From Georgenia sp. M64 (lineage in GTDB: Bacteria > Actinomycetota > Actinomycetes > Actinomycetales > Actinomycetaceae), in the NCBI RefSeq assembly GCF_038049925.1, contig NZ_CP145809.1, positions 62,001-126,000 of the forward strand: a DNA stretch of 64,000 nt, read 5' to 3'. The notes under the pieces were generated by a model. That model searched no databases and had not been told where the DNA came from. It saw only the letters and a list, made by a program, of their open reading frames with translations. This document shows positions 41,664 through 60,404 of this stretch, piece by piece. Every line of letters starts with the position of its first letter. Within the stretch, counting starts at the first letter, position 1. Made by a program: the position numbers and the translations under genes.

Positions 41664-41704
41664 TTGACCCCTGTAGTGCATGTCACCTACGTTGAATCGT
41701 TACA
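41664..41704 (+). promoter_or_regulatory. Promoter and LacI-type operator of the first PL11 gene
   Basis: TTGACC (41664-41669), an 18-bp spacer and TACGTT (41688-41693) form a good sigma-70 promoter. A near-palindrome TGAATCGTTACA at 41693-41704 covers the start point. Its reverse complement, TGTAACGATTCA, differs by one base from the site at 51107-51118. Confidence 0.7.
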
Positions 41705-41735
41705 AAGGCCATCCAGCCCAGCGAAGGATTCGACG

Positions 41736-44291
41736 ATGAGTCTCAGCCCCACACTGTCCGCCCGCGTCGTCGCCGCTCTCGCGGCGTCCGCCCTGGTCAC
41801 CGGCGCGGCCGGTGCCGCGTCGGCCGCCCCGCCCGCGCCGCCCCCGCAGGAGCCGCAGCTCGAGGTCCTCGACCGCGGTCTCGTCGCCGCGGTCACCGAC
41901 GACGGCGTCTTCCTCAGCTGGCGCCTCCTCGGCCACGAGGTGACGGGCGCGACGGCGACCGGGATGACCGGCGCCGACTTCAACGTCTACCGCGACGGTG
42001 AGCTCCTGACCACGGTCACCGACAGCACCAACCACCTCGACGCCGGCGGCTCGGCGACGAGCGAGTACCGGGTGGTCGCCGTCGTCGACGGCGTCGAGGT
42101 CGACCGCGGGGCCACGACCTCCCCGTGGACCCAGCCGTACACCGAGCTGCCGCTGCAGCGGCCGGCCGACGGCGTCACCCCGGTGGGGGAGGCGTACACG
42201 TACTCGGCCAACGACATGTCCGTCGCGGACGTCGACGGCGACGGCGCGTACGAGTACGTCGTCAAGTGGGACCCGTCCAACTCCAAGGACGTCTCCCAGA
42301 AGGGCTACACCGGCCCCGTCTACATCGACACCTACGAGGCGGACGGCACGCTGCTCCACCGCCTCGACCTCGGCCCGAACATCCGCGCCGGCGCCCACTA
42401 CACGCAGTTCATGGTCTACGACTTCGACGGCGACGGCCGGGCCGAGACGATGCTCAAGACGGCGCCCGGCACGAAGACCGTGACGTACGGCCCCGACGGC
42501 TCCCCGACCGAGGAGTACATCACCCTGCCGGCCGAGGACGTCGCCGCCGGGTACTCCAACGATGACGACTACCGGCTCAGCGCCGAGGGCTACCGCGACC
42601 ACCTGGTCGAGGTTTTCCGGGGCTGGGACTCCCACCCCGAGGTCGTCGCGGGGAGCTGGCCCGCGACCATCGAGGAGGCGCTCGGCATCGACCCCGTCCA
42701 CGACTACCCGCTCTCCCAGGAGAGTGCCGAGGCGCTCGTCGACCACTTCATCGACGTCTACGCCCCGCAGCGCAGCGGCCGCAACGACCTCACGACCTTC
42801 GAGGGCTTCATCCTCTCCGGGCCCGAGTACCTCACCGTGTTCGACGGAGCCACCGGCGAGGAGCTCGAGACGGTCCACTACAAGCCGGGCCGCCACGACG
42901 ACGGCCTCATGTGGGGCGACTACGCGATGTCGCGCATCGAGCCGGGCAACCGCGTGGACCGCTTCCTCGCCGGCGTCGCCTACCTCGACGGCGTCAACCC
43001 CTCGGCGGTCTTCGCTCGCGGCTACTACACCCGCTCCACCCTCGTCGCCTACGACTGGGACGGTGAGCACCTGAGCGAGCGGTGGTACGTCGACTCGGGC
43101 TGGACGCCGATGTCCAACCCGTTCAACGACGGCCCGCACGGCGTCGACGGCACCGACCCGGAGTTCGCGACGCTGACCACGCAGGGCTTCCACTCCCTCA
43201 GCGCCGCCGACGTCGACGGCGACGGCCGGCACGAGATCGTCTACGGCGCCGCCACGATCGACCACGACGGCTCGCTCCTCTACTCCTCCTTCGACACCAT
43301 GCCCGCGGCCAGCGCCCAGCCCGGTGCTACCGCCCGCCTGGGCCACGGCGACGCCATGCACGTCACCGACATCGACCCCGACCGGGAAGGCCTGGAGATC
43401 TTCACCGTCCACGAGGGCGGGCCCTGGGCGCCCTACGGCAACGCGATGCGCGACGGCGCCACCGGTGAGGTCCTCTTCGGCACCTACTCCGGCCGGGACA
43501 CCGGGCGCGGCATGATCGGCGACGTCGACACCTCCACCCGCGGCATCGAGGTGTGGGCGTCCATGCCCGGCGGCACCGACGGCTCGGGCCTGCTCAGCGC
43601 CACCGGCGCCCAGCTCGCGCCGACGACCCCCGGCACCAACCAGTCCATCCGCTGGGCCGCCGACGGCAGCACCCAGATCGTCAACGGCTCGCGCGACGAC
43701 ACCCCGACGATCGACGACCGGGAGCGCGGCACCCTCCTCACCGCCGAGGGCACCCGCACCAACAACTGGACCAAGGGCAACCCCTCGCTCGTCGCCGACG
43801 TCCTCGGCGACTGGCGCGAGGAGCTGCTCGTCCGCACGGTCGACAGCTCGGCGATCCGGATCTACCTCTCGACCGAGGTGACGGACCGCAAGCTCTACAC
43901 GCTCATGCACGACGTGCAGTACCGGGCCGAGGTGGCCCGGCAGAACACGACGTACAACCAGCCGTCGTACACGAGCTTCTACCTCGCCTCGGACACCGAC
44001 TTCACCGAGGTCCCGGTGCCGGCCTACCGCGCCCCGGGGGCCGCAGCGGCGCCGGCCGACGTCCTGGCCGGGCTCGTCGAGGACGGCGAGGTGAGCGGTG
44101 CGGCCGCCGCCAAGCTCACCGAGACGGCGGAGCAGGCCGAACGCCACGCGGCGGCCGGGCGGTTCGACCAGGCCGCCGACGCCCTCGACCGGCTGGTGCG
44201 GCACCTCGGCTCGCCCGCGGGCACGGTCTCGCCCGCGGCCGCGGCGATCCTCACCCACCAGGCGGGGGTGGCGAGCGGGCTCCTGGGCTGA
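41736..44291 (+). CDS. Secreted rhamnogalacturonan lyase, family PL11
   Basis: An 851-residue secreted enzyme. The signal peptide ends near ASA (residue 30). A short FN3-like domain at about 38-145 (FNVYRDGELLTTVTDSTNHLD) precedes the eight-bladed PL11 propeller. The propeller carries repeated calcium loops DVDGDG and DFDGDG and the segment YTYSANDMSVADVDGDG. The last 80 residues resemble a small helical FIMAH-like domain. PL11 enzymes cut the rhamnose-galacturonic acid backbone of pectin rhamnogalacturonan I by beta-elimination. The ribosome-binding site is GAAGGA. It is the first gene of the pectin locus. Confidence 0.9.
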   Translation: MSLSPTLSARVVAALAASALVTGAAGAASAAPPAPPPQEPQLEVLDRGLVAAVTDDGVFLSWRLLGHEVTGATATGMTGADFNVYRDGELLTTVTDSTNHLDAGGSATSEYRVVAVVDGVEVDRGATTSPWTQPYTELPLQRPADGVTPVGEAYTYSANDMSVADVDGDGAYEYVVKWDPSNSKDVSQKGYTGPVYIDTYEADGTLLHRLDLGPNIRAGAHYTQFMVYDFDGDGRAETMLKTAPGTKTVTYGPDGSPTEEYITLPAEDVAAGYSNDDDYRLSAEGYRDHLVEVFRGWDSHPEVVAGSWPATIEEALGIDPVHDYPLSQESAEALVDHFIDVYAPQRSGRNDLTTFEGFILSGPEYLTVFDGATGEELETVHYKPGRHDDGLMWGDYAMSRIEPGNRVDRFLAGVAYLDGVNPSAVFARGYYTRSTLVAYDWDGEHLSERWYVDSGWTPMSNPFNDGPHGVDGTDPEFATLTTQGFHSLSAADVDGDGRHEIVYGAATIDHDGSLLYSSFDTMPAASAQPGATARLGHGDAMHVTDIDPDREGLEIFTVHEGGPWAPYGNAMRDGATGEVLFGTYSGRDTGRGMIGDVDTSTRGIEVWASMPGGTDGSGLLSATGAQLAPTTPGTNQSIRWAADGSTQIVNGSRDDTPTIDDRERGTLLTAEGTRTNNWTKGNPSLVADVLGDWREELLVRTVDSSAIRIYLSTEVTDRKLYTLMHDVQYRAEVARQNTTYNQPSYTSFYLASDTDFTEVPVPAYRAPGAAAAPADVLAGLVEDGEVSGAAAAKLTETAEQAERHAAAGRFDQAADALDRLVRHLGSPAGTVSPAAAAILTHQAGVASGLLG

Positions 44292-44295
44292 TCCC

Positions 44296-44331
44296 CGCGG
44301 GGGTGGCGGTCACCCGGCCGCCACCCCCGCG
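44296..44331 (+). terminator. Hairpin between the two PL11 genes
   Basis: Perfect 14-bp stem CGCGGGGGTGGCGG / CCGCCACCCCCGCG with an 8-nt loop, 5 nt after the stop. The second lyase therefore probably has its own promoter, or is transcribed at reduced level by read-through. Confidence 0.75.
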
Positions 44332-44412
44332 CGCCGCCGCCACGGCGGCGCGCGACCACGCCGCAGCCCTCGCGGGGCACGGCGTCCGACCGGAACGACC
44401 CCACCGACAGGC

Positions 44413-44434
44413 CGGACGGCAGCGACGCCGTCCG
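44413..44434 (+). other. Small hairpin just upstream of the second PL11 ribosome-binding site
   Basis: CGGACGGC / GCCGTCCG (8 bp) with a 6-nt loop, ending 3 nt before the GAGGAG that serves the ATG at 44449. It could affect ribosome access. Confidence 0.4.
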
Positions 44435-44448
44435 CCGAGGAGCAAGAG

Positions 44449-47400
44449 ATGACATCACCCACCCCACCCGGGCGCCGGCGCGGCGTCCTGGCCGCGGTCG
44501 TGGCCACGGGCGCCCTCATCGGAACCGTGTCCGTCCAGGCGACGGCGTACGCCGAGCCCGGCGAGCCGGTCGTCCACCGCTTCGACCTCCAGCCGCCGGG
44601 CGCGCCGGTGGCGGAGGGCTTCACCGAGGTGACCCGCACCGCCACCTACACCGCGGAGAACGGCTACGGCTTCACCGAGCTCAACCTCGGTGACCGCGAC
44701 CGCGGAGGCGCGCTGGACGCCCTGCGTCGGGACTTCGTCCTGCCCCCCGTCGGCTCGGGCAGCACCTTCGTCGTCGACGTGCCGGACGGCGAGTACCACG
44801 TGACCACCTGGTCGGGGGACGGCATCGCCTCGAGCCGCACCGCCTACACGATCGAGGGCGTCGCCTACGGGGACCAGGGCGCCTCGAGCGGGACCGTGAA
44901 CGAGCGCGTCTTCGACCCGGTCGTCGTCGAGGACGGTCAGATGACCATCCACGTCGCGGGCAGCTCGCCGCGGCTCAACGGCATCCAGATCCTCTCCGCC
45001 CTCGCCGCGCCCACCGGACTCGCCGCGAGCGTCGACTTCGCGGCCCCGTCGGTGACGCTCACCTGGGACGCCGTCCCGGACGTGGACGGCTACCGCCTCT
45101 ACCGGACCGCCGCGGACGGCGAGGCGGAGCTCGTCACCGAGCAGCCCGGCACCAGCTACACCGACGCCGGGGTCCAGCTCGCCGGTGAGTACTCCTACCA
45201 GGTGGCCGCCGTCGCGCAGGGCCGTGAGGGCACCCTCTCCGACCCGGTCGACGTCAGCGTCGTCGACCCCGACGTCGCGCCGCCCGCCACGCCCACCGAC
45301 CTCACCCTGGCCGACATCGGCAAGGAGCACATCGCGCTGACGTGGACCGGCGACGACGCCGCCACCGCCTACGACGTGCAGCGGTCGCGCTCGCCGGAGG
45401 GACCGTTCGCCACCCTCGCCCGCGTGAGCGAGACGTCGTACACCGACGAGGACGTCCTCACCACCGTCGAGTACTCCTACCGCGTCGTCGCGGTCAACGC
45501 CGGCGGCGCCTCGCAGCCCTCCGCCGTGCTCACGACCGAGGCCGTGACCACCCTCGTCCGCCAGGCCGAGCACCTCGACCGCGCACCCGTCGCCGTCCGG
45601 TCCGACGACGGCGTCCACGTCGGCTGGCGCCACCTGGGCACCGACCCCGACGGCATCGCCTTCCACGTCTACCGCGACGGCGTGCGCATCACCGACGAGC
45701 CCGTCACCGGGGCGACGAACCTCCTCGATGAGGGCGGCGACGCCGGCTCCACCTACCGGGTCACCGTCGTCACCGACGACACCGAGGCCGACGCCACCGA
45801 GGACTTCGGCGTCTGGGCCGAGGGCCACCTCGACATCCCGCTGGACAAGCCCGCCGACGGCGTCGTGAACGGCCAGCCCTACAGCTATCGGGCGAACGAC
45901 GTCTCGGTCGGCGACCTCGACGGCGACGGCACCTACGAGGTCGTCCTCAAGTGGGACCCGACGAACTCCCAGGACAACTCCCGGTCCGGGTACACCGGGA
46001 ACGTGCTCGTCGACGCCTACGAGCTCGAAGGCACCCGGCTGTGGCGCGTCGACCTCGGCCGCAACATCCGCGCGGGCGCCCACTACACCCAGCCCATGGT
46101 CTACGACCTCGACGGCGACGGCCGGGCCGAGGTCGTCATGAAGACCGCTGACGGCACCACCGACGGTGCCGGCACGGTCATCGGCGACGCCGACGCGGAC
46201 CACCGCAACTCGGGCGGCTACGTGCTCGCCGGGCCCGAGTACCTCACGCTCTTCGACGGGGAGACCGGGGCCGCGCTCGACACGGTCGACTACGTGCCCC
46301 CGCGCGGGAACGTCGGCGCCTGGGGCGACGGGTACGGCAACCGCGTCGACCGGTTCCTCGCCGGCGTGGCCTACCTCGACGGCGAGCGGCCCAGCGTGGT
46401 CTTCAGCCGCGGGTACTACACCCGCACCGTGGTCGCGGCGTGGGACGTCGTCGACGACGCCCTGGTCGAGCGGTGGGTGTTCGACTCCGACGAGGCCGGC
46501 GAGCAGTACGAGGGCCAGGGCAACCACCAGTTCTCCGTGGCCGACGCCGACGGCGACGGCAAGGACGAGATCGTCTTCGGGGCCATGACGATCGACGACG
46601 ACGGCACGGTCCTCAACAGCTCCGGGCTGGGCCACGGCGACGCCATGCACGTCTCGGACCTCGTCCCCGACCGGGAGGGCCTGGAGGTCTTCCAGGTGTT
46701 CGAGTGCATGAGCTGCTCCGGCAACCGGGCCGCCGCCATGCGTGACCTCGCCACGGGCGAGGTCATCTGGGACATCCCGGGCAACCGGGACACCGGGCGG
46801 GGTGCGGCCGCGGACATCGACCCTCGGTTCGACGGCGCCGAGGCGTGGGCCATCGGCGGCGACTACGCGTGGAACTCTCAGGTCGGCCACCTCATGGCGG
46901 CCGACGGCACCCGCATCGGCGAGCAGATCCCGGCGGCGAACTTCGTCACCTGGTGGGACGGCGACCTCCTGCGGGAGATCACCGACCACGACTTCGACGC
47001 CACGACCCGCGAGGGCGTGCCCACGGTGTCCAAGTGGGACTACGAGGCCGGCGAGCAGGTCGAGCTCATGACCCTGACCGACCTGCGCACCAACAACGAC
47101 ACCAAGGGCAACCCCGCACTCCAGGCCGACCTGTTCGGCGACTGGCGCGAGGAGCTCGTCTACCGCACGGCGGACTCCACCGCCCTGCGGGTGCTCACCA
47201 CCACCGACGTCACCGGGCACCGGCTTCGCACGCTCATGCACGACCCGGTCTACCGGCTCGGCGTCGCGGGGCAGAACGTCGCCTACAACCAGCCCCCGCA
47301 CACGAGCTACTTCCTCGGTGAGGGCATGGAGCGGCCGCCGGCACCGAGCATCACCACGGTCGGCGGCCCGGACGTGGCCCGGCCGCCGTCGGCGCCGGGC

Positions 47401-47691
47401 AACGTGCGCCTGAACGACGACAACGCGCGCGGCACCGGTGTGCACGACGGCGACTACACCGTCACCGCGACCATGAACGCCGGCCAGAACGCCACGGTGT
47501 TCCGCCTCTACGAGAACGGGGTGGTCATCCACTCCGAGCTCCTGACGGACGACACCGCCGAGCCGCAGGTCGTCGAGGTCGCGATCACCGGCCGGGCGAA
47601 CGGCGACTACCGGTACGTCGCCGAGCTCGTCAACGCGACCGGCACCACGACCTCGCCCGAGCGGAAGGTCAAGGTCAAGGACGCCGGCTGA
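44449..47691 (+). CDS. Multidomain secreted rhamnogalacturonan lyase, family PL11
   Basis: A 1080-residue secreted enzyme with a signal peptide ending near AYA (about residue 34). A galactose-binding-like N-terminal module (about 39-183, FDLQPPGAPVAEGF to NGIQIL) resembles the N-domain of rhamnogalacturonan acetylesterases. Two FN3 domains (about 187-365) follow, then the PL11 propeller (about 370-960, with YSYRANDVSVGDLDGDG) and a C-terminal Ig-like module. No FIMAH-like tail is present. Binding modules suggest attachment to intact pectin. GAGGAG precedes the ATG by 6 nt. Confidence 0.9.
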   Translation: MTSPTPPGRRRGVLAAVVATGALIGTVSVQATAYAEPGEPVVHRFDLQPPGAPVAEGFTEVTRTATYTAENGYGFTELNLGDRDRGGALDALRRDFVLPPVGSGSTFVVDVPDGEYHVTTWSGDGIASSRTAYTIEGVAYGDQGASSGTVNERVFDPVVVEDGQMTIHVAGSSPRLNGIQILSALAAPTGLAASVDFAAPSVTLTWDAVPDVDGYRLYRTAADGEAELVTEQPGTSYTDAGVQLAGEYSYQVAAVAQGREGTLSDPVDVSVVDPDVAPPATPTDLTLADIGKEHIALTWTGDDAATAYDVQRSRSPEGPFATLARVSETSYTDEDVLTTVEYSYRVVAVNAGGASQPSAVLTTEAVTTLVRQAEHLDRAPVAVRSDDGVHVGWRHLGTDPDGIAFHVYRDGVRITDEPVTGATNLLDEGGDAGSTYRVTVVTDDTEADATEDFGVWAEGHLDIPLDKPADGVVNGQPYSYRANDVSVGDLDGDGTYEVVLKWDPTNSQDNSRSGYTGNVLVDAYELEGTRLWRVDLGRNIRAGAHYTQPMVYDLDGDGRAEVVMKTADGTTDGAGTVIGDADADHRNSGGYVLAGPEYLTLFDGETGAALDTVDYVPPRGNVGAWGDGYGNRVDRFLAGVAYLDGERPSVVFSRGYYTRTVVAAWDVVDDALVERWVFDSDEAGEQYEGQGNHQFSVADADGDGKDEIVFGAMTIDDDGTVLNSSGLGHGDAMHVSDLVPDREGLEVFQVFECMSCSGNRAAAMRDLATGEVIWDIPGNRDTGRGAAADIDPRFDGAEAWAIGGDYAWNSQVGHLMAADGTRIGEQIPAANFVTWWDGDLLREITDHDFDATTREGVPTVSKWDYEAGEQVELMTLTDLRTNNDTKGNPALQADLFGDWREELVYRTADSTALRVLTTTDVTGHRLRTLMHDPVYRLGVAGQNVAYNQPPHTSYFLGEGMERPPAPSITTVGGPDVARPPSAPGNVRLNDDNARGTGVHDGDYTVTATMNAGQNATVFRLYENGVVIHSELLTDDTAEPQVVEVAITGRANGDYRYVAELVNATGTTTSPERKVKVKDAG

Positions 47692-47730
47692 CGCCTCAAG
47701 GGGTGCGGCGGCGCAACATCCGCAGAACGG

Positions 47731-47762
47731 GCGGGCCCGGTGGGATCACCCACCGGGCCCGC
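47731..47762. terminator. Bidirectional terminator after PL11 and GH42 genes
   Basis: Perfect 14-bp stem GCGGGCCCGGTGGG / CCCACCGGGCCCGC with a 4-nt loop, between two converging genes. Confidence 0.85.
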
Positions 47763-47774
47763 TCTGCGTGGGGC

Positions 47775-49751
47775 TCAGCTCTCCTGCACGACGGCGACGC
47801 CGTGCGCGGGTACCCGGACCTCGCCGTCGACGTCGGTCGCCCGGATCAGCTCGCGTCCGTGCGTGGCCACGGTGACGTCCGCGCCGGTGTGGTTGACGAC
47901 GAAGAGGAAGCTCGTCCCCTCGCCGTGCCGCCGGACGACCTCGACCCCGTCGGGTGCCTCAGCCGCCGGCGCCACCCCGGCCTCGGTGAGGAGCGCGTCG
48001 ACGACCCGGGCGGTGCCGGTCTCGTCCAGCCGGGTCGCGGCGTACCAGGCCACGCCGTCGCCGACCGCCCGGCGGGTGACCGCGGGCCACCCCGCCAGCG
48101 GGCCGTCGGCGTACGTGCGCACCGCCTCCGCGCCGGCCAGGTGCGTCTTCTCGGTCCACAGCTGCGACGACGTGCCGTCGTCGAGGGTGCGCCGCTCGCC
48201 GTCGAGGAGCGGGAAGAACTCCTCGGTGCGCACCCCCAGCAGATCGCGGAAGGCCCCGGGGTAGCCGCCGAGACGGACGTGGTCGTGCTCGTCGACGATC
48301 CCGCTGAAGAACGTCACCAGGACCGAGGCACCCGCCTCGGCGGCCCGGGCGACGGCCGCGGCGGCGTGGTCGGTGACGCAGTAGAGCGTCGGGATGACGA
48401 CGACCCGGTAGCCCGTGAGGTCCGCCCCGGCGGGGACGAGGTCGACGGTGACGTTGCGCCGCCACAGCGCCCGGTACCAGGCGAGCACCTCGTCGGTGTA
48501 GCGCAGCGCCTGGGTGGGGTGGGAGTCCAGCTCGGCGCCCCACCAGGCGGGGTAGTCGAAGACGAGGGCGACATCGGCGCGCACGCGGCTGCCGCGCACC
48601 GGGCCCAGGGCGCCCAGCGCGGCACCGAGCTCGACGGTGCGCCGCCACACGTTTGTGTCCCGCCCGGCGTGGGGGACCATCGCGGAGTGGAACTTCTCCG
48701 CCCCGGCGGCGGACTGGCGCCACTGGAAGAACATCACGGCGTCGGCGCCCCGGGCGACGTGGGTGAGGGAGTTGCGCAGCATCTCGCCCTCGCCCTTGGC
48801 GCGGTTGCGCGGCTGCCAGTTCACCGCCGAGGTGGAGTGCTCCATGAGGATCCACGGGTCGCCGCCGGCGACGCCGCGGGTGAGGTCCGCGCTGAAGGCC
48901 AGCTCGACGTGGCCCTCCGGGTCGTGGGCGCGCAGGTAGTGGTCGTTCGCGACGACGTCGAGGTCGCCCGCCCAGGAGAAGTAGTCCATCCACTTCGTGC
49001 CGGTGGAGAGCATGAGGTTCGTCGTCGTCGGCACGTGCGGGGTGACCTCGCGCAGGACGTCGCGCAGCGCCCGGTAGTGGACGAGGAGCTCGTCGGAGGA
49101 GTACCGCGCGAAGTCCAGCTGCTGGGTCGGGTTGGCGTACGTCGGGGCGGTCCGCGGGGGCAGCACCTCGTCGAAGGAGCCGTACCGCTGGGACCAGAAC
49201 GCCGTCCCCCAGGCGGTGTTGAGCGCCGCGACCGTGCCGTAGCGTCGCTCGAGCCACCGCCGGAAGGCGGCCGCGGCGTCGTCGGAGTAGTCGTGCGGGA
49301 CGTGGCAGCCGAGCTCGTTGTCCACGTGCCACAGCGCCAGCGCCGGGTGCTCGCCGTACCGCTCGGCCATGGTCCGGGTCATGCGCAGGGCGTAGTCACG
49401 GAAGACCGGCGAGGACACCGAGTAGGCCTGGCGCCCGCCCGGGTGCAGCACCGTGCCGTCGGCGAGCTCGGGGAGGATCTCCGGGTGCTTGCGGGTCAGC
49501 CACGGCGGTGGGGAGGCGGTCGCCGTCGCCAGGGCCACCCTGATGCCGGCGCCGTGGAGCCGGTCGAGCGTGTCGTCGAGCCAGCCGAAGTCGTGCTCGC
49601 CCTCGCGCGGCTCGAGCATCGCCCACGAGAAGATCCCGACGCTGAGGATGGTCACCCCCGCCTCGCGCATGAGCCCGACGTCCTCCAGCCGGACGTCCAG
49701 CGGCCACTGCTCGGGGTTGTAGTCGGCGCCGTAGTCCAGGCCTCGGGTCAT
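47775..49751 (-). CDS. Beta-galactosidase, family GH42
   Basis: A 658-residue cytoplasmic enzyme (no signal peptide). It starts MTRGLDYGADYNPEQW, with NPEQW the GH42 hallmark. The acid/base Glu is in WHVDNELGCH (E146) and the nucleophile in WILMEHSTSAVNW (about 304). The trimerisation and beta-sandwich domains are present by length. It should release galactose from beta-1,4-galactan oligosaccharides, the main side chains of rhamnogalacturonan I. Its ATG overlaps the MFS stop by 4 bp, so the two are one operon transcribed away from the ABC genes. Confidence 0.93.
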   Translation of the reverse strand: MTRGLDYGADYNPEQWPLDVRLEDVGLMREAGVTILSVGIFSWAMLEPREGEHDFGWLDDTLDRLHGAGIRVALATATASPPPWLTRKHPEILPELADGTVLHPGGRQAYSVSSPVFRDYALRMTRTMAERYGEHPALALWHVDNELGCHVPHDYSDDAAAAFRRWLERRYGTVAALNTAWGTAFWSQRYGSFDEVLPPRTAPTYANPTQQLDFARYSSDELLVHYRALRDVLREVTPHVPTTTNLMLSTGTKWMDYFSWAGDLDVVANDHYLRAHDPEGHVELAFSADLTRGVAGGDPWILMEHSTSAVNWQPRNRAKGEGEMLRNSLTHVARGADAVMFFQWRQSAAGAEKFHSAMVPHAGRDTNVWRRTVELGAALGALGPVRGSRVRADVALVFDYPAWWGAELDSHPTQALRYTDEVLAWYRALWRRNVTVDLVPAGADLTGYRVVVIPTLYCVTDHAAAAVARAAEAGASVLVTFFSGIVDEHDHVRLGGYPGAFRDLLGVRTEEFFPLLDGERRTLDDGTSSQLWTEKTHLAGAEAVRTYADGPLAGWPAVTRRAVGDGVAWYAATRLDETGTARVVDALLTEAGVAPAAEAPDGVEVVRRHGEGTSFLFVVNHTGADVTVATHGRELIRATDVDGEVRVPAHGVAVVQES

Positions 49752-51061
49752 GTCTGCGGTTCCTCTCTGGTGGTCGTGCCCGACGGCACGGTCGTCTCGT
49801 CCGGCCGGCGGCCGGTGGTGTGCCGGAGCTGGTCACGGTCGTGCCGAACCTCGTCCGGGGTGCGGGCCCGCCACCACAGCACCGCCGCGACCGCCGCCGT
49901 GGCGGTCAGGGCGAGCGCGCCGGTGACGGCGAGCCCGGCGCGCACGCCGAGCTCCTCCGCGAGCCGTCCCTGCAGCAGGCCGCCCAGGGCGTGGCCGACG
50001 AGCAGGACGGGGGTGTAGATGGCCAGCACCCGCCCGCGCACCTGCGCGGCGGCGGTGAGCTGGACGTAGGAGACCGCACTGGTGAGGAAGAACTGTGTCG
50101 TGGCGCCGACGACGGTCAGCGCCGCGAGGAAGGCGGCGTGCCCGGGCACGAGCGCCGCCGCGGTCTCGGCGACGGCGAACGCCGCGGAGCCGGCCACGAC
50201 GGTGCGGACCCGCAGACCCGGGAGCCGGGAGGCCAGGAGCGCCCCGACGAGGGCGCCGGCCGCGGCGAGGCTGTTGTACAGGCCGAACCCGCGGGCGCCG
50301 GTGTCCCACACCTCCTCGGCGAACGCGGAGTACACGACGGGTCCGTTGAGCCCGAAGGCCCCCATGAGACCGGCGAGGACGACGACGGCGGCCAGGCGCG
50401 GGCGGGTCAGGACGTAGGCGAAGCCCTCCCGCAGCTGCCCGGGCGCGCGGGCCACCGGCGCGGCGCGGTGCAGGTCGGCCGGCCGCATGGCCGCGACGAG
50501 CGTCACGACCGCCAGGCAGACGAGGGCGTTGAGACCGAACGACCACCCGTCGCCGACCTCCGCGATGAGCAGCCCGGCCAGGGCCGGGCCGACGAGCCCG
50601 CCGCCCTGGTTGAGGGCGTTCGTCACCGAGACGGCGGTGCGCAGTGAGGCGTCGCCCGCCACCTCGCCGACGAGCACCTGACGGGCCGGACCCTCGACGG
50701 CGGCGACGACGCCGAGCAGGGTGGCGGCCACGTAGAGGTGGGCCACGGTGACGACGCCGGTGAGGGTGACCGCGGCCAGGGCCGCCGCGAGGAGCGCCGT
50801 GGCGGTCTGGGCGCCCATGACGAGGCGGCGCTTGTCGTGGCGGTCGGCGAGCAGCCCGCCCGCCGGTCCCAGGAACAGCAGGGGGAGGAACTGCAGGGCC
50901 ACGAGCACCCCGACGGCGGCGGGGCTGCCGGTGAGCTCCAGGACGAGCCAGTCCGTGGCCATGCGGAGCATCCACGTCCCGGCGCTGCCCAGGGCCTGGG
51001 CGCCGAGCAGCAGCCGGAAAGCCGGTCGCCGCAGCAGCGGAGCAGGCGGGACGGGATTCAT
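49748..51061 (-). CDS. MFS transporter (enterobactin-exporter-like MFS_3)
   Basis: A 437-residue major facilitator protein, about 12 helices. FRLLLGAQALGSAGTWMLRMATDWLVLELTGS and FLGPAGGLLADRHDKRRLVMG (motif A) are typical of the EntS/MFS_3 group, which mostly export small molecules. In this locus its role is unclear: it could move a pectin-derived sugar or simply be carried along with GH42. The ATG at 51061 has GAGGAG upstream. Its promoter has TACAAT as -10 and is overlapped by an operator. Confidence 0.85.
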   Translation of the reverse strand: MNPVPPAPLLRRPAFRLLLGAQALGSAGTWMLRMATDWLVLELTGSPAAVGVLVALQFLPLLFLGPAGGLLADRHDKRRLVMGAQTATALLAAALAAVTLTGVVTVAHLYVAATLLGVVAAVEGPARQVLVGEVAGDASLRTAVSVTNALNQGGGLVGPALAGLLIAEVGDGWSFGLNALVCLAVVTLVAAMRPADLHRAAPVARAPGQLREGFAYVLTRPRLAAVVVLAGLMGAFGLNGPVVYSAFAEEVWDTGARGFGLYNSLAAAGALVGALLASRLPGLRVRTVVAGSAAFAVAETAAALVPGHAAFLAALTVVGATTQFFLTSAVSYVQLTAAAQVRGRVLAIYTPVLLVGHALGGLLQGRLAEELGVRAGLAVTGALALTATAAVAAVLWWRARTPDEVRHDRDQLRHTTGRRPDETTVPSGTTTREEPQT

Positions 51062-51104
51062 GCGACTCCTCGGCGAGGTCGGCCCTTGTGACCCGGACAA
51101 CAAT

Positions 51105-51118
51105 ATTGTAACGTTTCA
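51105..51118 (-). promoter_or_regulatory. -10 and LacI-type operator of the MFS-GH42 operon
   Basis: On the minus strand TACAAT (51110-51105) is a near-consensus -10. The operator TGTAACGTTTCA on the plus strand (51107-51118), palindromic at 10 of 12 positions, overlaps it directly. Confidence 0.75.
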
Positions 51119-51128
51119 CTCACGCACC

Positions 51129-51174
51129 TTGTCCGGCCGGTCGCACGGCACCTACGTTCGGGAATGCGCTTACA
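51129..51174 (+). promoter_or_regulatory. Promoter of the sugar ABC operon with possible second operator
   Basis: TTGTCC (51129-51134), 18-bp spacer, TACGTT (51153-51158), the same -10 as the PL11 promoter, within a shared CACCTACGTT decamer. GGAATGCGCTTACA at 51161-51174 is a weaker LacI-like dyad at the start point. Confidence 0.6.
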
Positions 51175-51202
51175 CACCCTACTGAGCAAGGAGGCTCATC
51201 CG

Positions 51203-52531
51203 ATGAAGCGACAGCTCATCAAGATCGCCGGCACGGCGACTGCCATGACCCTGGTTCTCGCCGCCTGCTCAGGCGGCGGCACCGGGGACGAGACCGCCAC
51301 CGAGGGTGGCGCCACTGCCGGGGCAGGGGGTGGCGAGCCCGTCACCCTCACGTTCACCTGGTGGGGCAACGACGACCGCGCCTCCCGCTACGAGCAGGCT
51401 CTCGAGCTCTTCAACGAGGAGTACCCGGACATCACCGTCCAGACCTCCTTCGCCGACTTCCCCAACTACTGGACCGCTCGCGCGACCGAGGCCGCGGGCC
51501 GCACCCTGCCCGACGTCATGCAGTTCGACCTGTCCTACCTGCGGGAGTACAGCGAGAACGGTCACCTCCTCGACCTCGCCGAGCACACGGACGCCACGAT
51601 CGACGTCTCCGGCTTCGACCAGTCGCTCCTGGACTCCGGCGTCATCGACGGCGCCCAGATCGGCATCCCCACCTCGACGAACACGCTCGCGCTGTTCGTC
51701 AACCCCAACCTCGTCGAGCAGGCCGGCGTCGAGCCCCTCCCGGAGGACTACACCTGGGAGGACTACAACGCCTTCCTCGCCGCCGTCTCGGACGCCGGCG
51801 CCACCACCGACGAGGGTCAGCCGATCTACGGCGGCGCCGACTACACCGGCACCTTCTGGTTCTTCATGCAGTGGCTCGTCCAGCAGGGCGTCACCCCCTT
51901 CGAGGACGACGGCTCCTTCGGCTTCGACGAGCAGCACATGAAGGACTTCCTCGCCATGACCGAGGACCTCCGTGCGGCCGAGCAGGTCTACCCCGTCGAC
52001 CGCGGCATCCAGCTCCTCCCGCTGGGCGGCTTCACCGTCAACGAGTCGGCCTCGGAGTTCAGCTGGGACAACTTCCTCGCCGGCTACACCGCCGACTCGG
52101 GCACCGAGAACATCGAGATGCTCCCCATGCCGGTGCCCGAGGACGGCGAGCGGGGCATGTTCTTCAAGCCGTCCATGCTGCTCTCGTCCGGCGCGAACAC
52201 CGAGCACCCGGAGGAGGCGGCCATGCTCATCGACTTCCTCGTCAACGACCCCGAGGTCGGCGCCATCTTCGGCACCTCGAAGGGCGTCCCGGCGGTCGCC
52301 GCCCAGCGTGACGCGATGGAGCTCGAGGAGGGCAGCGTCGACGCCCGCGTCGTCGCCTACGAGGACGCCGTCGCCGAGTACGTCACCGAGCCCGTGCCGA
52401 TCCCGGTCAAGGGCTTCGGCTCCATCGAGGCGGAGTACAAGCGCCTCGCCGAGGAGCTGGCCTACGGCACGATCACGGTCGACGAGTTCGTCGAGACGTG
52501 GTTCGCCGAGGCCCAGCTCATGACCCAGTAG
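51203..52531 (+). CDS. Sugar ABC transporter substrate-binding lipoprotein
   Basis: A 442-residue family 1 binding protein. The lipobox VLAAC gives Cys22, so it is anchored outside. VTLTFTWWGNDDRASRYEQALELFNEEYPDITVQ and TLPDVMQFDLSYLREY are typical of oligosaccharide-binding proteins. It is the first gene of a five-gene run with two permeases, a DUF624-like membrane protein and a DUF6807 protein. In this locus the ligand is probably an unsaturated rhamnogalacturonan disaccharide or oligomer (inference). AAGGAGG precedes the ATG. Confidence 0.92.
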   Translation: MKRQLIKIAGTATAMTLVLAACSGGGTGDETATEGGATAGAGGGEPVTLTFTWWGNDDRASRYEQALELFNEEYPDITVQTSFADFPNYWTARATEAAGRTLPDVMQFDLSYLREYSENGHLLDLAEHTDATIDVSGFDQSLLDSGVIDGAQIGIPTSTNTLALFVNPNLVEQAGVEPLPEDYTWEDYNAFLAAVSDAGATTDEGQPIYGGADYTGTFWFFMQWLVQQGVTPFEDDGSFGFDEQHMKDFLAMTEDLRAAEQVYPVDRGIQLLPLGGFTVNESASEFSWDNFLAGYTADSGTENIEMLPMPVPEDGERGMFFKPSMLLSSGANTEHPEEAAMLIDFLVNDPEVGAIFGTSKGVPAVAAQRDAMELEEGSVDARVVAYEDAVAEYVTEPVPIPVKGFGSIEAEYKRLAEELAYGTITVDEFVETWFAEAQLMTQ

Positions 52532-52563
52532 GACTCCCGACGCCCACGAACGGATCGACAACC

Positions 52564-53517
52564 GTGACCACCACCGACACGGTGACCGGTCGGCGTGCCG
52601 CCGTCCCGCCGTCCCCCGCCCCGCGGCGGAGACGGCGGGCGGCGGAGACCCGGGCCGGCTACGCCTTCCTCACGCCCTGGCTGCTGGGCTTCTTCGCCCT
52701 GACCGCCGGCCCCATGCTCGCCTCGCTCTACCTCGCCTTCACCGACTACAACCTCTTCGCCGCCCCGTCGTGGGTGGGGCTGGAGAACTTCCGGCTCCTG
52801 TTCGACGACCCGAGGTTCATCCAGTCGGCGAAGGTGACGCTGACCTACGCGGTCCTGGGCACGCCCATCAAGCTCGCCGCCGCCCTGGCGGTGGCGATGC
52901 TGCTCAACACCGCCCACCAGGGCAAGGGCTTCTACCGGTCGGTGTTCTACGCACCCTCGCTCATCGGTGCGAGCGTCTCGATCGCCATCGTGTGGAAGGC
53001 GATGTTCATCGACAACGGCATCGTCGACCGTCTCGGACAGTCGGTCGGCCTCGAGGCCGGCGGCTGGGTGGGCAACCCCGACATGACCATGCCGATGTTC
53101 ATCCTGCTGACCGTCTGGCAGTTCGGCGCCCCGATGGTCATCTTCCTCGCCGGCCTCAAGCAGGTCCCGGCCGAGCTCTACGAGGCGGCCTCCGTCGACG
53201 GTGCCGGCCCGGTGCGCAAGTTCTTCTCCATCACCCTGCCGATGCTCTCGCCGGTGCTGTTCTTCAACCTCCTGCTCGAGACCATCCACTCGTTCCAGAT
53301 CTTCGCCTCCGCCTTCATCATCTCCGGCGGCACCGGCGGGCCCGCGGGCTCGACCCTCTTCTACACGCTCTACCTCTACATCCGCGGCTTCCAGGACTTC
53401 CGCATGGGCTACGCCTCGGCGATGGCCTGGGTCCTCGTGGTCGTCGTGGGCCTGATCACCATCGTCTTCTTCCGCACGTCGAAGTCCTGGGTGCACTACA
53501 GCGGGGAGGGAAAATGA
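52564..53517 (+). CDS. Sugar ABC transporter permease (MalF-type)
   Basis: A 317-residue permease with six membrane helices; YAFLTPWLLGFFALTAGPMLASL is the first. The EAA loop reads ELYEAASVDGAGPVRKFFSITLP, the contact site for the ATPase. It forms a heterodimer with the next gene product. GTG start 32 nt after the binding-protein stop; no strong ribosome-binding site is visible, so translation may be coupled. No ATPase gene is present in the locus. Confidence 0.92.
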   Translation: MTTTDTVTGRRAAVPPSPAPRRRRRAAETRAGYAFLTPWLLGFFALTAGPMLASLYLAFTDYNLFAAPSWVGLENFRLLFDDPRFIQSAKVTLTYAVLGTPIKLAAALAVAMLLNTAHQGKGFYRSVFYAPSLIGASVSIAIVWKAMFIDNGIVDRLGQSVGLEAGGWVGNPDMTMPMFILLTVWQFGAPMVIFLAGLKQVPAELYEAASVDGAGPVRKFFSITLPMLSPVLFFNLLLETIHSFQIFASAFIISGGTGGPAGSTLFYTLYLYIRGFQDFRMGYASAMAWVLVVVVGLITIVFFRTSKSWVHYSGEGK

Positions 53518-54428
53518 CCGCCGTCGACACCGCGCCGGCCACCACGCGCGACTCCGAGGAGCACAGCGCCGCCCTGCGCAGCAGGCACCAGCGCTCCTCC
53601 CGGGTCCGCTCGCTGCTGTTCCACCTGTTCGTCCTGGCCGTCGCCGCCGTGGTCCTCTACCCGGGCCTGTGGATGCTCATGTCCTCGCTCAAGCCCACGT
53701 CGGAGATCGTCGGCAACGTCAGCCTCATCCCCACCAACGCCTCGCTGGACAACTTCACCAAGGCGCTGCAGGGCATCGGTGGGATCTCGTTCTGGACGTT
53801 CTTCTGGAACTCCACGATCCTCGCGGTGGGGGCCGTGGTGGGCACCGCGCTGTCGGCGTCGGTCAGCGCCTACGCGTTCTCACGCATCGAGTTCCCCGGC
53901 CGCAAGGTCTTCTTCGCGCTGATGATCGCGACGCTCCTGCTGCCCTTCCACGTCGTGATCATCCCGCAGTACATCGTCTTCAACAATCTCGGCCTGGTGA
54001 ACACCTACGTCCCGCTCCTCATCGGCAAGTTCCTCGCCGCCGAGGCGTTCTTCGTCTTCCTCATGGTCCAGTTCATGCGCAACCTGCCGCGCGAGCTGGA
54101 CGAGGCCGCCCGCATCGACGGCGCGGGACACCTGCGGATCTTCACCTCGATCATGCTGCCGCTGATGAAGCCCGCCCTGGTGACGTCCTCGATCTTCGCG
54201 TTCATCTGGTCCTGGAACGACTTCTTCGGTCCGCTGCTGTACCTCAAGGACCCGTCGTTGTACTCCCTGCCCATCGCGCTGCGGCTGTTCGTGGACCAGA
54301 CGTCGACGTCCGACTACGGCGCCCAGATGGCGATGGCCGTGCTCGCCCTCATCCCCGTCCTGCTGTTCTTCCTCCTCTTCCAGCGTCACCTCATCGAAGG
54401 TGTCGCCACCCAGGGGCTCAAGGGCTGA
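53514..54428 (+). CDS. Carbohydrate ABC transporter permease (MalG-type)
   Basis: A 304-residue permease, six helices, with the EAA loop ELDEAARIDGAGHLRIFTSIMLPL and the C-terminal WNDFFGPLLYLKDPSLYSLPIALR. The ATG overlaps the stop of the first permease by 4 bp, with GGGGAGGG as ribosome-binding site. Together with the previous two genes it forms the importer. Confidence 0.92.
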   Translation: MTAVDTAPATTRDSEEHSAALRSRHQRSSRVRSLLFHLFVLAVAAVVLYPGLWMLMSSLKPTSEIVGNVSLIPTNASLDNFTKALQGIGGISFWTFFWNSTILAVGAVVGTALSASVSAYAFSRIEFPGRKVFFALMIATLLLPFHVVIIPQYIVFNNLGLVNTYVPLLIGKFLAAEAFFVFLMVQFMRNLPRELDEAARIDGAGHLRIFTSIMLPLMKPALVTSSIFAFIWSWNDFFGPLLYLKDPSLYSLPIALRLFVDQTSTSDYGAQMAMAVLALIPVLLFFLLFQRHLIEGVATQGLKG

Positions 54429-55138
54429 TGGGGACGGCGGCGCGGGAGCGGGCGACGGTGACAGGCGGGACGAGCGGGGACCGACCCCGGGACCGGTTCG
54501 AGGGCCTGCCCGACGACCGGTCCGACGCGAGCGGGCACGAGCTGCCCGACGGCGGCGAGACGGACCGGTCCGCCGACCGCGCCGCAGGCTTGACGTCGCG
54601 GATGTCGCTGTTCACCGAGGTCGCCGTCGTCGGTGCCGCCGTCGCCGTCGCCGCGATCACCGTGGTGCTGGCGGTGCTGGTCATGGCGGCCGGGGCCGCG
54701 CACCTGCGTTGCCACCTCGCAGGCGAGCCGGACACCGTCCGGCGCCTGCTGACCGACGTCCGCTCCGCCGTCCGTGACCTGTGGCCGCTCGCCCTGGCGG
54801 TCCCGGCCGCACTCGCCCTGCTCGCCACGAACGTGTGGGCCGGGCTCAACGGCCTCCCCGGCGGCACCGTCGTGGCGGCGGTCAGCGCCGCGACAGCCGT
54901 CGCCGTCACGGTGGTCACCCTCCGGGTGGTGGGCACGTGGGAGCCGGGACGGTCCTGGCGGCCCGCCGTCCGGGCGGCCGCCTCGTGCTCCGTCACCGAC
55001 CTCACGGGGTCGGTGCTGCTCGTGGCCGCCGTCGTCATGGTGGCCACCATGGTGTGGATGCTGCTGCCGCTGCTCCTCCTCGCCGGTGGGCTGCTCACCA
55101 TGGCCGCCCTCGCCGTCGAGCGACGGGCCGGGCGATGA
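54428..55138 (+). CDS. DUF624 (YesL)-like membrane protein
   Basis: A 236-residue protein. The first about 58 residues are polar and variable. The rest has four to five hydrophobic segments, beginning MSLFTEVAVVGAAVAVAAITVV. The block CHLAGEPDTVRRLLTDVRSAVRDLWPLAL and the location right behind sugar permeases suggest the DUF624/YesL family, which accompanies such transporters in Bacillus pectin loci. Its biochemical role is unknown. The ATG shares one base with the upstream stop. If an internal ATG at about residue 59 were the true start the soluble lead would vanish. Confidence 0.6.
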   Translation: MGTAARERATVTGGTSGDRPRDRFEGLPDDRSDASGHELPDGGETDRSADRAAGLTSRMSLFTEVAVVGAAVAVAAITVVLAVLVMAAGAAHLRCHLAGEPDTVRRLLTDVRSAVRDLWPLALAVPAALALLATNVWAGLNGLPGGTVVAAVSAATAVAVTVVTLRVVGTWEPGRSWRPAVRAAASCSVTDLTGSVLLVAAVVMVATMVWMLLPLLLLAGGLLTMAALAVERRAGR

Positions 55139-56160
55139 GCGTGGCGCTGACCGGGGTGACGAGTTCGGCGCCGACCGACGCGGCGCTGAGGGTCCGGCAC
55201 GACCTCGGCCACCGGGTCGTCGTCGGTCACGGCGACGTCGATCTCGTCACCTACGTCTACGGCCCCGATGACGTCCAGCTCGAGTCCCCCCGGCCCTACC
55301 TCCACCCCGTGCGCACGCTCGGCGGGGAGCTCATGACGCTCTTCCGCCCGCACGACCACGTCTGGCACAAGGGCATCGCCCTGTCGCTGCCGAACGTCGG
55401 GCGCCACAACTTCTGGGGCGGACCGACCTTCGTGCGCGACGAGGGCTACGTGCAGCTGGCGAACAACGGGAGCATGGACCACGTCCGGTTCACCCAGCTC
55501 GAGGTCTCCGGCGACGCCGCACGTCTGGCCCACGAGCTCGCCTGGCACACCCAGCCCGACGGTCCCGACGGCGGCGCCGAGGTGGTGCGCGAGACGCGGC
55601 GGATCACGGCCACCGTGCCGCCCGACGACGGATCGCGGGCGGCGTCGACGGCCTGGGTGCTCACGCTGGAGTCGTCGTTGACCAACGTCTCCGACGAGGC
55701 GCTCGACATCGGCTCGCCCACGACGAACGGCCGCGAGAACGCCGGGTACGGCGGTCTCTTCTGGCGTGGTCCCAGGGCCTTCACCGGCGGCACCATCCTG
55801 TGGCCCGGGCAGGCGGGCGGGGAGGAGGCCCGCGGCACCCGCGCGGAGTGGATGGGCTTCACCGGCCGCCACGACGGGTCCGGGGAGTCCTCGAGCCTCG
55901 TCGTCGTCGACGACGGCGCCAACCCCCACCACCCGCCCGAGTGGTTCGTGCGCAACGAGTGGTTCGCCGGGGTGAACCCGGCGCCGTTCTTCAGCGAGGA
56001 GGTGCCGTTCCCGCCCGGTGGGACGCTGGACCTGCGCTACGCCGTCGTGATCGCCGACGGCGCCGCCGACCCGGTCCGGGCCGAGGCGCTCGCCGGGTTC
56101 GGCCGCACGGCGCTCGCGGGGCTGGATGCGGCTGAGCCCGAGGGTGTTGCTCGGGGTTGA
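55135..56160 (+). CDS. DUF6807 / PmoA-family protein
   Basis: A 341-residue protein of the so-called PmoA family (PF14100/DUF6807), a misleading name with no methane-oxidation role. It has several His-rich segments: RPHDHVWHKGIALSLPNVGRHNFWGG near 79-104 and NPHHPPEWFVRNEWFAGVNP near 263-282. The fold is thought to be a beta-sandwich like that of sugar-active enzymes. Relatives commonly sit beside Gfo/Idh dehydrogenases, as here. ATG overlaps the upstream stop (ATGA). The function in sugar breakdown is unproven. Confidence 0.78.
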   Translation: MSVALTGVTSSAPTDAALRVRHDLGHRVVVGHGDVDLVTYVYGPDDVQLESPRPYLHPVRTLGGELMTLFRPHDHVWHKGIALSLPNVGRHNFWGGPTFVRDEGYVQLANNGSMDHVRFTQLEVSGDAARLAHELAWHTQPDGPDGGAEVVRETRRITATVPPDDGSRAASTAWVLTLESSLTNVSDEALDIGSPTTNGRENAGYGGLFWRGPRAFTGGTILWPGQAGGEEARGTRAEWMGFTGRHDGSGESSSLVVVDDGANPHHPPEWFVRNEWFAGVNPAPFFSEEVPFPPGGTLDLRYAVVIADGAADPVRAEALAGFGRTALAGLDAAEPEGVARG

Positions 56161-56275
56161 GCCCGCAGGTGTTGCTCGTTTGAGCCCGCCGGATTCGCCC
56201 GGTTGAGCCCGCCGGATTCGCCCGCGGGTGAGTCCGTGGGCTTCGCTCGGGGGGTGAGCCCGCGGCTGAGTCAGG
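56133..56275. repeat. Tandem array, about six GAGCCCGC-headed units of 22-27 bp
   Basis: Units starting GAGYCCG recur at about 56133, 56159, 56182, 56205, 56230 and 56255, with internal variants of GGATTCGCCCG or GTGTTGCTCG. The first unit overlaps the coding end of the DUF6807 gene. Confidence 0.75.
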
Positions 56276-56287
56276 ACCCTCCGGCGC

Positions 56288-56315
56288 GAGTCAGCAGCAA
56301 CGTTTCTGCTGACTC
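56288..56315. terminator. Bidirectional hairpin between converging genes
   Basis: Perfect 10-bp stem GAGTCAGCAG / CTGCTGACTC with an 8-nt loop (CAACGTTT), in the convergent gap between DUF6807 and Gfo/Idh. Confidence 0.75.
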
Positions 56316-56320
56316 GACCC

Positions 56321-56410
56321 GGTGGGTACTGACTGGGCGAAGCCGCGTCCGATGGGTACTGACTGGGCGAAGACGTGCCCGGCGGGTACTGACGGGGCGG
56401 ATCGGTGCCG
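56321..56410. repeat. Three 30-bp direct repeats
   Basis: GGGTACTGACTGGGCGA starts at 56324 and 56354, and a variant with GACGGGGCG at 56384, exactly 30 bp apart; a weaker fourth copy lies near 56441. Confidence 0.85.
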
Positions 56411-56471
56411 GGCGGCCGAGGTCTCGGGCGGTTCGGCCTGGGCGGCTACCGACTGGACGGCGCCCGTCCGG

Positions 56472-57590
56472 TCACTCGCGACCGGACGCGCTGCTTGCCG
56501 GCCCGGCGGCGCCCGGCCGGAGGTCGGTGACCTCCGCGCGCAGCCCGGTGGTGAAGCGCTCGTCGGCGTCGAGCACCTCCGGCGTCACCGATCGGCCGTG
56601 GGTGGCTGAGGCGTAGATCGCGGCCACGAGCTCGAGCGGACGGCGGGCGTGGGTGAGCAGGTCCGGGAGCGGCTGCCCCGCGGCGACGGCGTCGACGAAC
56701 GCGCGCACCAACGGGATGTGCCCGCTCGGCTCGTCGTCCTCCGGCAGCTCCCACGTGCGGGCCCGCTCCGGGTCGACGCCGCGGGCAGGGGTGACCCTCC
56801 AGCTGCCGCGGTCGTGACCGTAGAGGTGCTCGACCTCGATCGTGGCCAGCTCGGTGTCGATGCGCAGGTAGCTCGTCTCGCGCGGCGAGAGCACCGAGGA
56901 CACGGCGGTGGCGACGACCCCGTTGTCGAAGCGGATGATCGCGGTCGAGGCGTCCTCCATCTCGATCTCGCGGGCCAGCCGCCACAGCCTCGCGTCGACC
57001 TCGGCCCAGTCGCCGAGGAGGTGCGCGAGCAGGTCCATCTGATGGATCCCGTGGCCGAAGGTGGTCCCGCCGCCCTCGCCGTCCCACGTGCCGCGCCAGT
57101 CGACGGCGTAGTAGTCGTCCTGGCGCAGCCAGAGCGTCTGGCACTGCGCCAGGAGCGGACGGCCCAGCTCGCCGGAGTCGAGGAGCGACCGCACGTGCGC
57201 GGCCGCGGTGCCGGTGCGCTGCTGGAAGACCATGCCGAACGCGATGCCCGCCGCGTCGGCGGCCGCCTGCATCTCGTCGAGCTCGGTGAGGGAGAGCGCG
57301 GGCGGCTTCTCGCACAACACGTGCACGCCCGCCGCGCAGGCGGCGAGGGTCTGCTCGCGGTGGAGCTCCGGCGGCGTGCAGAGGATGACCAGGTCGAGGT
57401 CCTCGCCGTCGAGCAGCGAGTCGAGCGTCTCGTGCCGGCCGGGGACCGCCCATCGGTCGGCGAACTCCTCCCGGCGCCGGGCGCCGCGGTTCGCCACCGC
57501 GACGAGGTCGACGCGTGGGTCGGCGGCGAGCGCCTCGGCGTGCAGGTGGGCGACGGCACCGGTGCCGACGATGGCGGCCTTGAGAGTCAC
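56472..57590 (-). CDS. Gfo/Idh/MocA-family oxidoreductase
   Basis: A 372-residue NAD(P)-dependent sugar dehydrogenase. AAIVGTGAVAHLHAEALAAD is the N-terminal Rossmann motif, LCEKPPALS the EKP motif, and WDGEGGGTTFGHGIHQMDLLAHLLGDW carries the conserved His of the C-terminal domain. Substrate unknown; the locus suggests a uronate or rhamnose derivative. The GTG start has AAGGAG 6 nt upstream. It faces the DUF6807 gene tail to tail, and its promoter has an operator like those of the other locus genes. Confidence 0.88.
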   Translation of the reverse strand: MTLKAAIVGTGAVAHLHAEALAADPRVDLVAVANRGARRREEFADRWAVPGRHETLDSLLDGEDLDLVILCTPPELHREQTLAACAAGVHVLCEKPPALSLTELDEMQAAADAAGIAFGMVFQQRTGTAAAHVRSLLDSGELGRPLLAQCQTLWLRQDDYYAVDWRGTWDGEGGGTTFGHGIHQMDLLAHLLGDWAEVDARLWRLAREIEMEDASTAIIRFDNGVVATAVSSVLSPRETSYLRIDTELATIEVEHLYGHDRGSWRVTPARGVDPERARTWELPEDDEPSGHIPLVRAFVDAVAAGQPLPDLLTHARRPLELVAAIYASATHGRSVTPEVLDADERFTTGLRAEVTDLRPGAAGPASSASGRE

Positions 57591-57620
57591 CGCTGCTCCT
57601 TCGCTCGGGGGACTCTCCGC

Positions 57621-57649
57621 AGCGTAGCCGCATGTCTAAAACGTTTCAA
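57621..57649 (-). promoter_or_regulatory. Promoter and LacI-type operator of the Gfo/Idh gene
   Basis: Minus strand: TTGAAA (57649-57644), 17-bp spacer, TACGCT (57626-57621). The dyad TAAAACGTTTCA on the plus strand (57637-57648) overlaps the -35 and shares the core AACGTTTCA with the site at 51107. Confidence 0.7.
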
Positions 57650-58996: not shown

Positions 58997-59008
58997 GTCC
59001 CTACATTA
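58997..59008 (-). promoter_or_regulatory. Leaderless -10 of the ROK gene (TAATGT)
   Basis: TAATGT on the minus strand (59008-59003) is 6 nt before the GTG at 58996. Confidence 0.6.
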
Positions 59009-59018
59009 AACCCTGCGC

Positions 59019-59037
59019 CTAAATTTAGATGCTAAAT
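59019..59037. promoter_or_regulatory. Palindromic operator in the ROK/ABC divergent region
   Basis: CTAAATTTAG (59019-59028) is a perfect 10-bp palindrome followed by a half site CTAAAT (59032-59037), in the AT-richest stretch of the divergent gap. Confidence 0.55.
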
Positions 59038-59088
59038 CAATCCCTGGCCGCACCGTACCGCCACGTTCGCATCGAAGGAGACGACGAC

Positions 59089-60372: not shown

Positions 60373-60404
60373 CCAGCCTCACCGCCGAGAACTGGAGTCA
60401 CCCC

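Follow-up and report, generated by a model that had tools for sequence, protein, structure and literature searches.

The pectin locus of Georgenia sp. M64 raises the question of which regulator acts on three related dyads of the LacI operator type that lie in its promoter regions. The window analyzed here is the whole stretch of 64,000 nucleotides at C1:62001-126000 (G+C content, 74%), C1 being the single contig (NZ_CP145809.1; 4,183,773 bp) of this genome. Its segment from 41.7 to 57.6 kb holds two genes for PL11 rhamnogalacturonan lyases, minus-strand GH42 and MFS transporter genes, an ABC importer operon that ends in a DUF6807 gene, and a minus-strand Gfo/Idh gene. An earlier note on this DNA proposed that one LacI-family repressor, encoded outside the window, controls the lyases, the importer, GH42, and Gfo/Idh. 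Judging from the sequence comparisons described below, the three dyads are very probably the operators of a single LacI-family repressor, an RhaR of the type found in Actinomycetales, that is encoded just beyond the window.

All three 12-mers named in the earlier note were found in place (Table 1), but the core that they were said to share is exact only in the first two: operators 1 and 2 match the pattern TGWAWCGNTWCA exactly and operator 3 with one mismatch. Three sites served to build the pattern, namely, the two in the window that fit it exactly and one between the lacI and rhaM genes outside the window. In the window, it has 4 exact strand matches versus 0.01 expected and, with one mismatch allowed, 7 strand matches versus 0.42 expected; neither count was reached in any of 100 shuffles. 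A one-mismatch match at 37677, inside a PPK2 gene, was dismissed as background.

A motif search of the complete genome, the check suggested in the earlier note, found the exact pattern at five places, C1:103693 (window position 41693), C1:113107 (window position 51107), C1:127274, C1:127871, and C1:548509. All five precede rhamnogalacturonan or rhamnose genes (a PL11 lyase gene, the ABC importer/MFS-GH42 region, lacI/rhaM, rhaI, and a third PL11 gene, respectively). Counted by strand, there are 8 exact matches versus about 0.8 expected from composition, and the backward pattern used as a control has no exact place in the 4.18-Mb genome. The rhaI site and the site of the third PL11 gene are the only two places that are independent of the construction of the pattern. 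The lacI/rhaM intergenic site reads TGAACCGATTCA, and the rhaI site, located in the rhaI start region, is the perfect palindrome TGAAACGTTTCA. The third PL11 gene (C1:548451-554015), which also encodes GDSL and fn3 domains, has two operators 43 bp apart in its promoter, one of them (at C1:548466) with one mismatch; the four PL11 domain matches in the genome are confined to these three genes. The remaining one-mismatch sites elsewhere in the genome, with counts near background, were set aside. The predicted regulon comprises five exact and two one-mismatch sites. These data support a predicted rhamnose/rhamnogalacturonan regulon that extends beyond the pectin locus: the common LacI-family regulon of the earlier note is upheld in silico, but its scope would be wider (rhaM, rhaI-rhaEW-rhaB, and the third PL11 gene), and GH42 would belong to it through the MFS gene.

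A gene for a LacI-family protein that is itself preceded by this site is indeed present just outside the window, on the minus strand at C1:126116-127204 (64116-65204 in window numbering), approximately 116 bp past the window edge. Its product combines an N-terminal LacI helix-turn-helix (HTH) domain (64 bits) with a periplasmic-binding-type sensor domain, as do members of the LacI/GalR family, and has near full-length matches to LacI-family models and PDB chains. The gene is divergent from rhaM (C1:127311), with the operator between the two, and rhaM is followed by rhaI (GTG at about C1:127920), rhaEW, and rhaB. RhaI and RhaEW score 612 and 1,053 bits against NCBIfam cut-offs of 531 and 568, respectively; RhaM is recognized by Pfam (90 versus a cut-off of 23) and scores below its NCBIfam cut-off; and the best NCBIfam match of RhaB is rhamnulokinase, but at 407 versus a cut-off of 528. 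The repressor gene adjoins L-rhamnose catabolic genes, including those for RhaI and RhaEW, and palindromic operators lie upstream of both rha genes and oligosaccharide uptake genes, as is characteristic of RhaR.

LacI-family operators have a centred palindrome in common, and the dyads could instead be generic LacI-like palindromes bound by one or more of the other LacI-family proteins. Such proteins are numerous: the search for LacI HTH domains gave 21 matches in the genome, none inside the window, and of the 20 genes over the Pfam cut-off one lies nearby, at C1:138951. However, the exact pattern is found within 300 bp upstream of the HTH-encoding region only in the repressor gene and in none of the 19 others, among which those with a visible palindrome have different cores. 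The recognition helix GTVSNV[LFI]N, present in the repressor and in the 36 compared homologs of at least 49% identity, is likewise not seen in the LacI paralogs of this genome, nor in loci L141, L145, and L174, and the pattern travels with RhaR homologs. The paralogs were rejected for want of a matching self-site, and binding by any of them appears very unlikely.

The conservation of the sites was assessed by scanning the repressor against a set of 84,980 species, each represented by a single genome. The best 80 of the 121 matches represent 79 distinct loci, of which 40 were classed as actinobacterial (39 at 49 to 78% identity and one from Streptomyces at 37%) and 39, nearly all enterobacterial, show 33 to 39% identity. 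Among these best matches, the exact pattern precedes the repressor homolog (within 300 bp upstream and up to 60 bp inside the gene) in 27 of the 40 actinobacterial loci (two of the 40 have short flanks) and in 20 of the 21 loci with at least 64% identity and a full flank, versus 0/40 for the reversed pattern; it is found in none of the 39 remoter loci. In the wider family, 13 of the 26 RhaR-like loci of 40 to 64% identity have the exact site no more than 400 bp upstream. A target-by-target count covered 38 loci (with L142 and L174 excluded), taking an operator within 300 bp upstream and, for each target, the loci with a match and a full flank. The exact operator was found upstream of rhaR (27/36), rhaI (16/24), rhaM (16/20), and the importer solute-binding protein gene (5/6), and less often upstream of PL11 relatives (2/7; with one mismatch, 4/7), Gfo/Idh relatives (2/12; with one mismatch, 6/12), GH42 (1/3), MFS (0/2), and DUF6807 (0/3). 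Genes internal to operons had few (rhaB, 0/16; permease, 0/13; rhaEW, 2/19), and the reversed control gave 0 at every target. In L110, the operator stands directly before GH42. All 15 bp of the importer dyad TATTGTAACGTTTCA are identical between the window and three relatives. A one-mismatch operator is retained in 4/4 Gfo/Idh orthologs with 60% identity or more, and the imperfect half GTTTTA of the Gfo/Idh dyad is unchanged in L104, L107, and L139. A rha gene is found near the homolog in 26 of the 38 loci (at least 49% identity) scanned for neighbors.

Among eight genus mates, the best match to the repressor reaches 44 to 47% identity in two and is below 40% in the rest, so the repressor is mostly missing, and four of them have no exact site. 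In 30 genomes of the family, including this one, the exact site lies within 500 bp upstream of RhaI in 6, a count that says little, since rhaI often seems to follow another gene. In L104 (positions 135 to 2063), an exact operator (2051) coincides with the start of a gene for a class II aldolase, and a gene for an iron alcohol dehydrogenase comes next; this might possibly be a further branch of the regulon.

Consensus readings of the -35 and -10 elements (predicted rather than mapped) give the following positions for the operators. The TTGACC-18-TACGTT promoter noted earlier at the first dyad is present, with the operator beginning on the last T of its -10. In the rhaI promoter (TTGACG-18-TACGCT) the operator is 3 bp, and in that of rhaM (TTGACG-17-TAGCGT) 12 bp, downstream of the -10. 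The third dyad lies, as had been claimed, over the TTGAAA -35 on the Gfo/Idh side, 17 bp from TACGCT, and extends into the spacer. The third PL11 promoter (TTGTCG-18-TAGTGT) has one operator from the -35 end into the spacer and the other 17 bp past the -10. The TACAAT said to underlie the second dyad exists, on the minus strand and on the MFS side, but no TTG-type -35 was found for it, and the promoter script detected no -35/-10 pair in the MFS direction.

Several observations weigh against assigning all these sites to RhaR. The pattern was partly derived from sites that it later recovered. Genome-wide, its class with up to one mismatch (38 strand matches versus 26 for the backward control) is close to background, and the Gfo/Idh site belongs to this class; operator 3 is therefore credited for where it lies and for being conserved in relatives, and not for rarity. 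In the ABC promoter, the likely -35 (TTGTCC-18-TACGTT) comes after the operator, and a different dyad is over the start, although an alternative pair, TTGTGA-17-TAACGT, would place its -10 within the RhaR-type operator. Even with up to one mismatch, no site was found at 3/7 PL11, 2/2 MFS, 2/3 GH42, 7/24 rhaI, and 6/12 Gfo/Idh targets. The repressor is below the cut-off of every NCBIfam model, its LacI-family matches falling under the equivalog cut-offs. The genus mates are a weak control: 1 to 5 strand matches occur in the remaining four (0 to 2 for the backward control), and G007, one of those without an exact site, combines RhaI and a 47% homolog with a one-mismatch site that precedes the RhaI match by 63 bp. 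Finally, 12 of the 38 homolog loci have no rha gene, and in five of these 12, all actinobacterial drafts (L128, L130, L132, L134, and L137; 55 to 56% identity) the homolog adjoins a GH13 gene, with TGAATCGATTCA, the same operator, upstream in four of the five. A GH13 operon also adjoins the repressor in this genome, its GH13 gene converging on the repressor gene, so that the repressor might be a regulator of alpha-glucoside genes whose control of the rhamnose and pectin genes via these sites is only secondary. Against this, the SBP2-GH13 region contains no site of the TGWAWCGNTWCA type at up to one mismatch and possesses a divergent ROK gene of its own, and a rha gene is present at 20 of the 21 scanned loci of at least 64% identity (the exception is L111; L142 was outside the scan). 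This explanation is considered highly improbable.

With RhaR as the regulator, the following mechanism can be proposed. In the absence of inducer, an RhaR dimer would sit on TGAAWCGWTTCA-like operators that overlap the spacer between -35 and -10, the -10 itself, or the start region, blocking transcription of the rhamnose genes, the three PL11 lyase genes, the oligosaccharide ABC importer, MFS-GH42 (with GH42 controlled as the gene behind MFS), and Gfo/Idh. Accumulation of rhamnose or an early intermediate would release RhaR from DNA and turn on the polymer-degrading, import, and catabolic genes together. The sites, their genome-wide confinement, the gene identities, and the conservation of the sites and the recognition helix are computed; what we infer is that RhaR binds the sites, that it represses and does not activate, and which compounds may serve as its effector.

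Besides RhaR, a second regulator probably acts on the ABC importer. The weaker dyad that the earlier note had added at its promoter exists, probably as the GGAATGCGCTTWC element, but is of a different motif type (AAGCGC). It is kept in the window and three relatives and probably serves another regulator. Dyads of the GGAATGCGCTTWC type are also found at C1:142181 and C1:133729; the motif precedes a Gfo/Idh gene in exact form and, with two mismatches, genes for SDR and FAD enzymes, and such sites occur near genes for a KDPG aldolase, a PfkB kinase, an IclR, and a LacI protein. A LacI gene at C1:3665807 has the similar GTAAGCGCTTTC upstream.

Table 1. Predicted operators and genes of the pectin locus and its flank, in window positions
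Feature	Position	Strand	Remarks
Operator 1, TGAATCGTTACA	41693-41704	+	Predicted; begins on the final -10 base of the TTGACC-18-TACGTT promoter that precedes the PL11 genes
PL11 rhamnogalacturonan lyase (RGL11_C, RGI_lyase, FIMAH)	41736-44291	+	Domain matches; ATG located
Second PL11 lyase, carrying fn3 and a YXIM-like binding domain	44098-47691	+	Predicted extent; start approximate
GH42 beta-galactosidase	47775-49832	-	Start uncertain; second gene, behind MFS
MFS transporter	49748-51061	-	Divergent from ABC operon
Operator 2, TGTAACGTTTCA	51107-51118	+	Predicted; covers TACAAT -10 (minus strand), 10 bp upstream of likely ABC -35 TTGTCC
Second dyad, GGAATGCGCTTAC (conserved element GGAATGCGCTTWC, AAGCGC type)	51161-51173	+	2 bp past likely -10 TACGTT of ABC promoter
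ABC solute-binding protein	51203-52531	+	First gene of importer operon; ATG located
ABC permease 1	52501-53517	+	Start uncertain
ABC permease 2	53514-54428	+
Further gene within importer operon	~54.4-55.1 kb
DUF6807 protein	55135-56160	+	Likely last gene of importer operon
Gfo/Idh/MocA oxidoreductase	56472-57590	-
Operator 3, TAAAACGTTTCA (TGAAACGTTTTA on minus strand)	57637-57648	-	Predicted; overlaps TTGAAA -35 of Gfo/Idh
ROK-family gene	57752-58996		Divergent from SBP2 operon

The two PL11 genes in the window are probably transcribed together because the 3' end of the first lies within the open frame of the second. In L105, L106, and L108, the place of the MFS gene divergent from the ABC operon is taken by a gene for an FMN-dependent dehydrogenase (L105:18916-20124; assigned by Pfam in L105 only and by similar N termini in the other two), which would fit the use of rhamnose-derived lactate. 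The region from 57752 to 64000, with the ROK gene divergent from the SBP2 gene and GH13 further on, is apparently a separate alpha-glucoside system located between the pectin and rhamnose genes. The ROK-family protein is the only regulator among the annotated window proteins, and, with no LacI-family gene inside the window, it could be suspected of regulating the three sites. It was rejected because it has a divergent operon of its own and the sites recur with RhaR homologs, which makes such a role exceedingly improbable.

Although the genome encodes three PL11 lyases and a rhamnose pathway, searches for GH88/105, the GH78 catalytic domain, and GH106, three families that release rhamnose or unsaturated uronate, gave no match. 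The PDB relatives of the Gfo/Idh protein include a glucuronide-3-dehydrogenase (8tdi). The lack of matches to these families, combined with a Gfo/Idh gene under a conserved operator and its 8tdi relative, leaves room for speculation about an oxidative route. Rhamnogalacturonan I might be broken down without a known unsaturated-rhamnogalacturonyl hydrolase or rhamnosidase, with RhaR-controlled Gfo/Idh and DUF6807 proteins opening the glycosidic bond by oxidation and elimination after PL11 cleavage and import, and with the importer integrating the RhaR rhamnose signal and a second signal via the AAGCGC-type dyad; this scheme, taken as a whole, is unlikely, if conceivable. The regulon assignment exposes this gap in tested rhamnosidase and unsaturated-uronyl hydrolase families, suggests through co-regulation roles for Gfo/Idh, DUF6807, and the importer, and names a likely regulator and extent for a rhamnogalacturonan I (pectin) regulon in plant-degrading actinobacteria.

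A LacI-type RhaR that co-regulates the use of rhamnose and rhamnose oligosaccharides was predicted in Actinomycetales in 2013 (Rodionova et al., PMC3870299), and the literature search on this regulon and on rhamnogalacturonan with LacI/RhaR returned nothing relevant beyond that paper. Compared with its text description, the present case fits that regulon, sharing a LacI regulator beside rha genes, palindromic operators, the RhaEW fusion, and co-regulation of rhamnose catabolism with rhamnose-oligosaccharide import (rhiLFG). Several of the regulons described there include putative rhamnosidases (ramA/rhmA), whereas no GH78-catalytic or GH106 match is found here; conversely, the regulon predicted here takes in PL11 lyases, MFS-GH42, and Gfo/Idh, and the main-text passages of PMC3870299 that were consulted do not list PL11, GH42, DUF6807, or Gfo/Idh among RhaR members. 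In the same passages, RhiR (LacI family; Rhizobiales/Erwinia) and RhgR (Bacillales) also regulate the use of rhamnogalacturonides or rhamnogalacturonan, but as specialized regulators apart from the rha genes, whereas in this genome a single type of site occurs at both. RhaS of Erwinia, as described there, is a single regulator for rhamnose and rhamnogalacturonide (rhiTN) genes; unlike the repressor discussed here, it belongs to the AraC family, and its protein and site are unrelated. Overall, this is a real and well-supported regulon of a known kind, extended by some new member genes.

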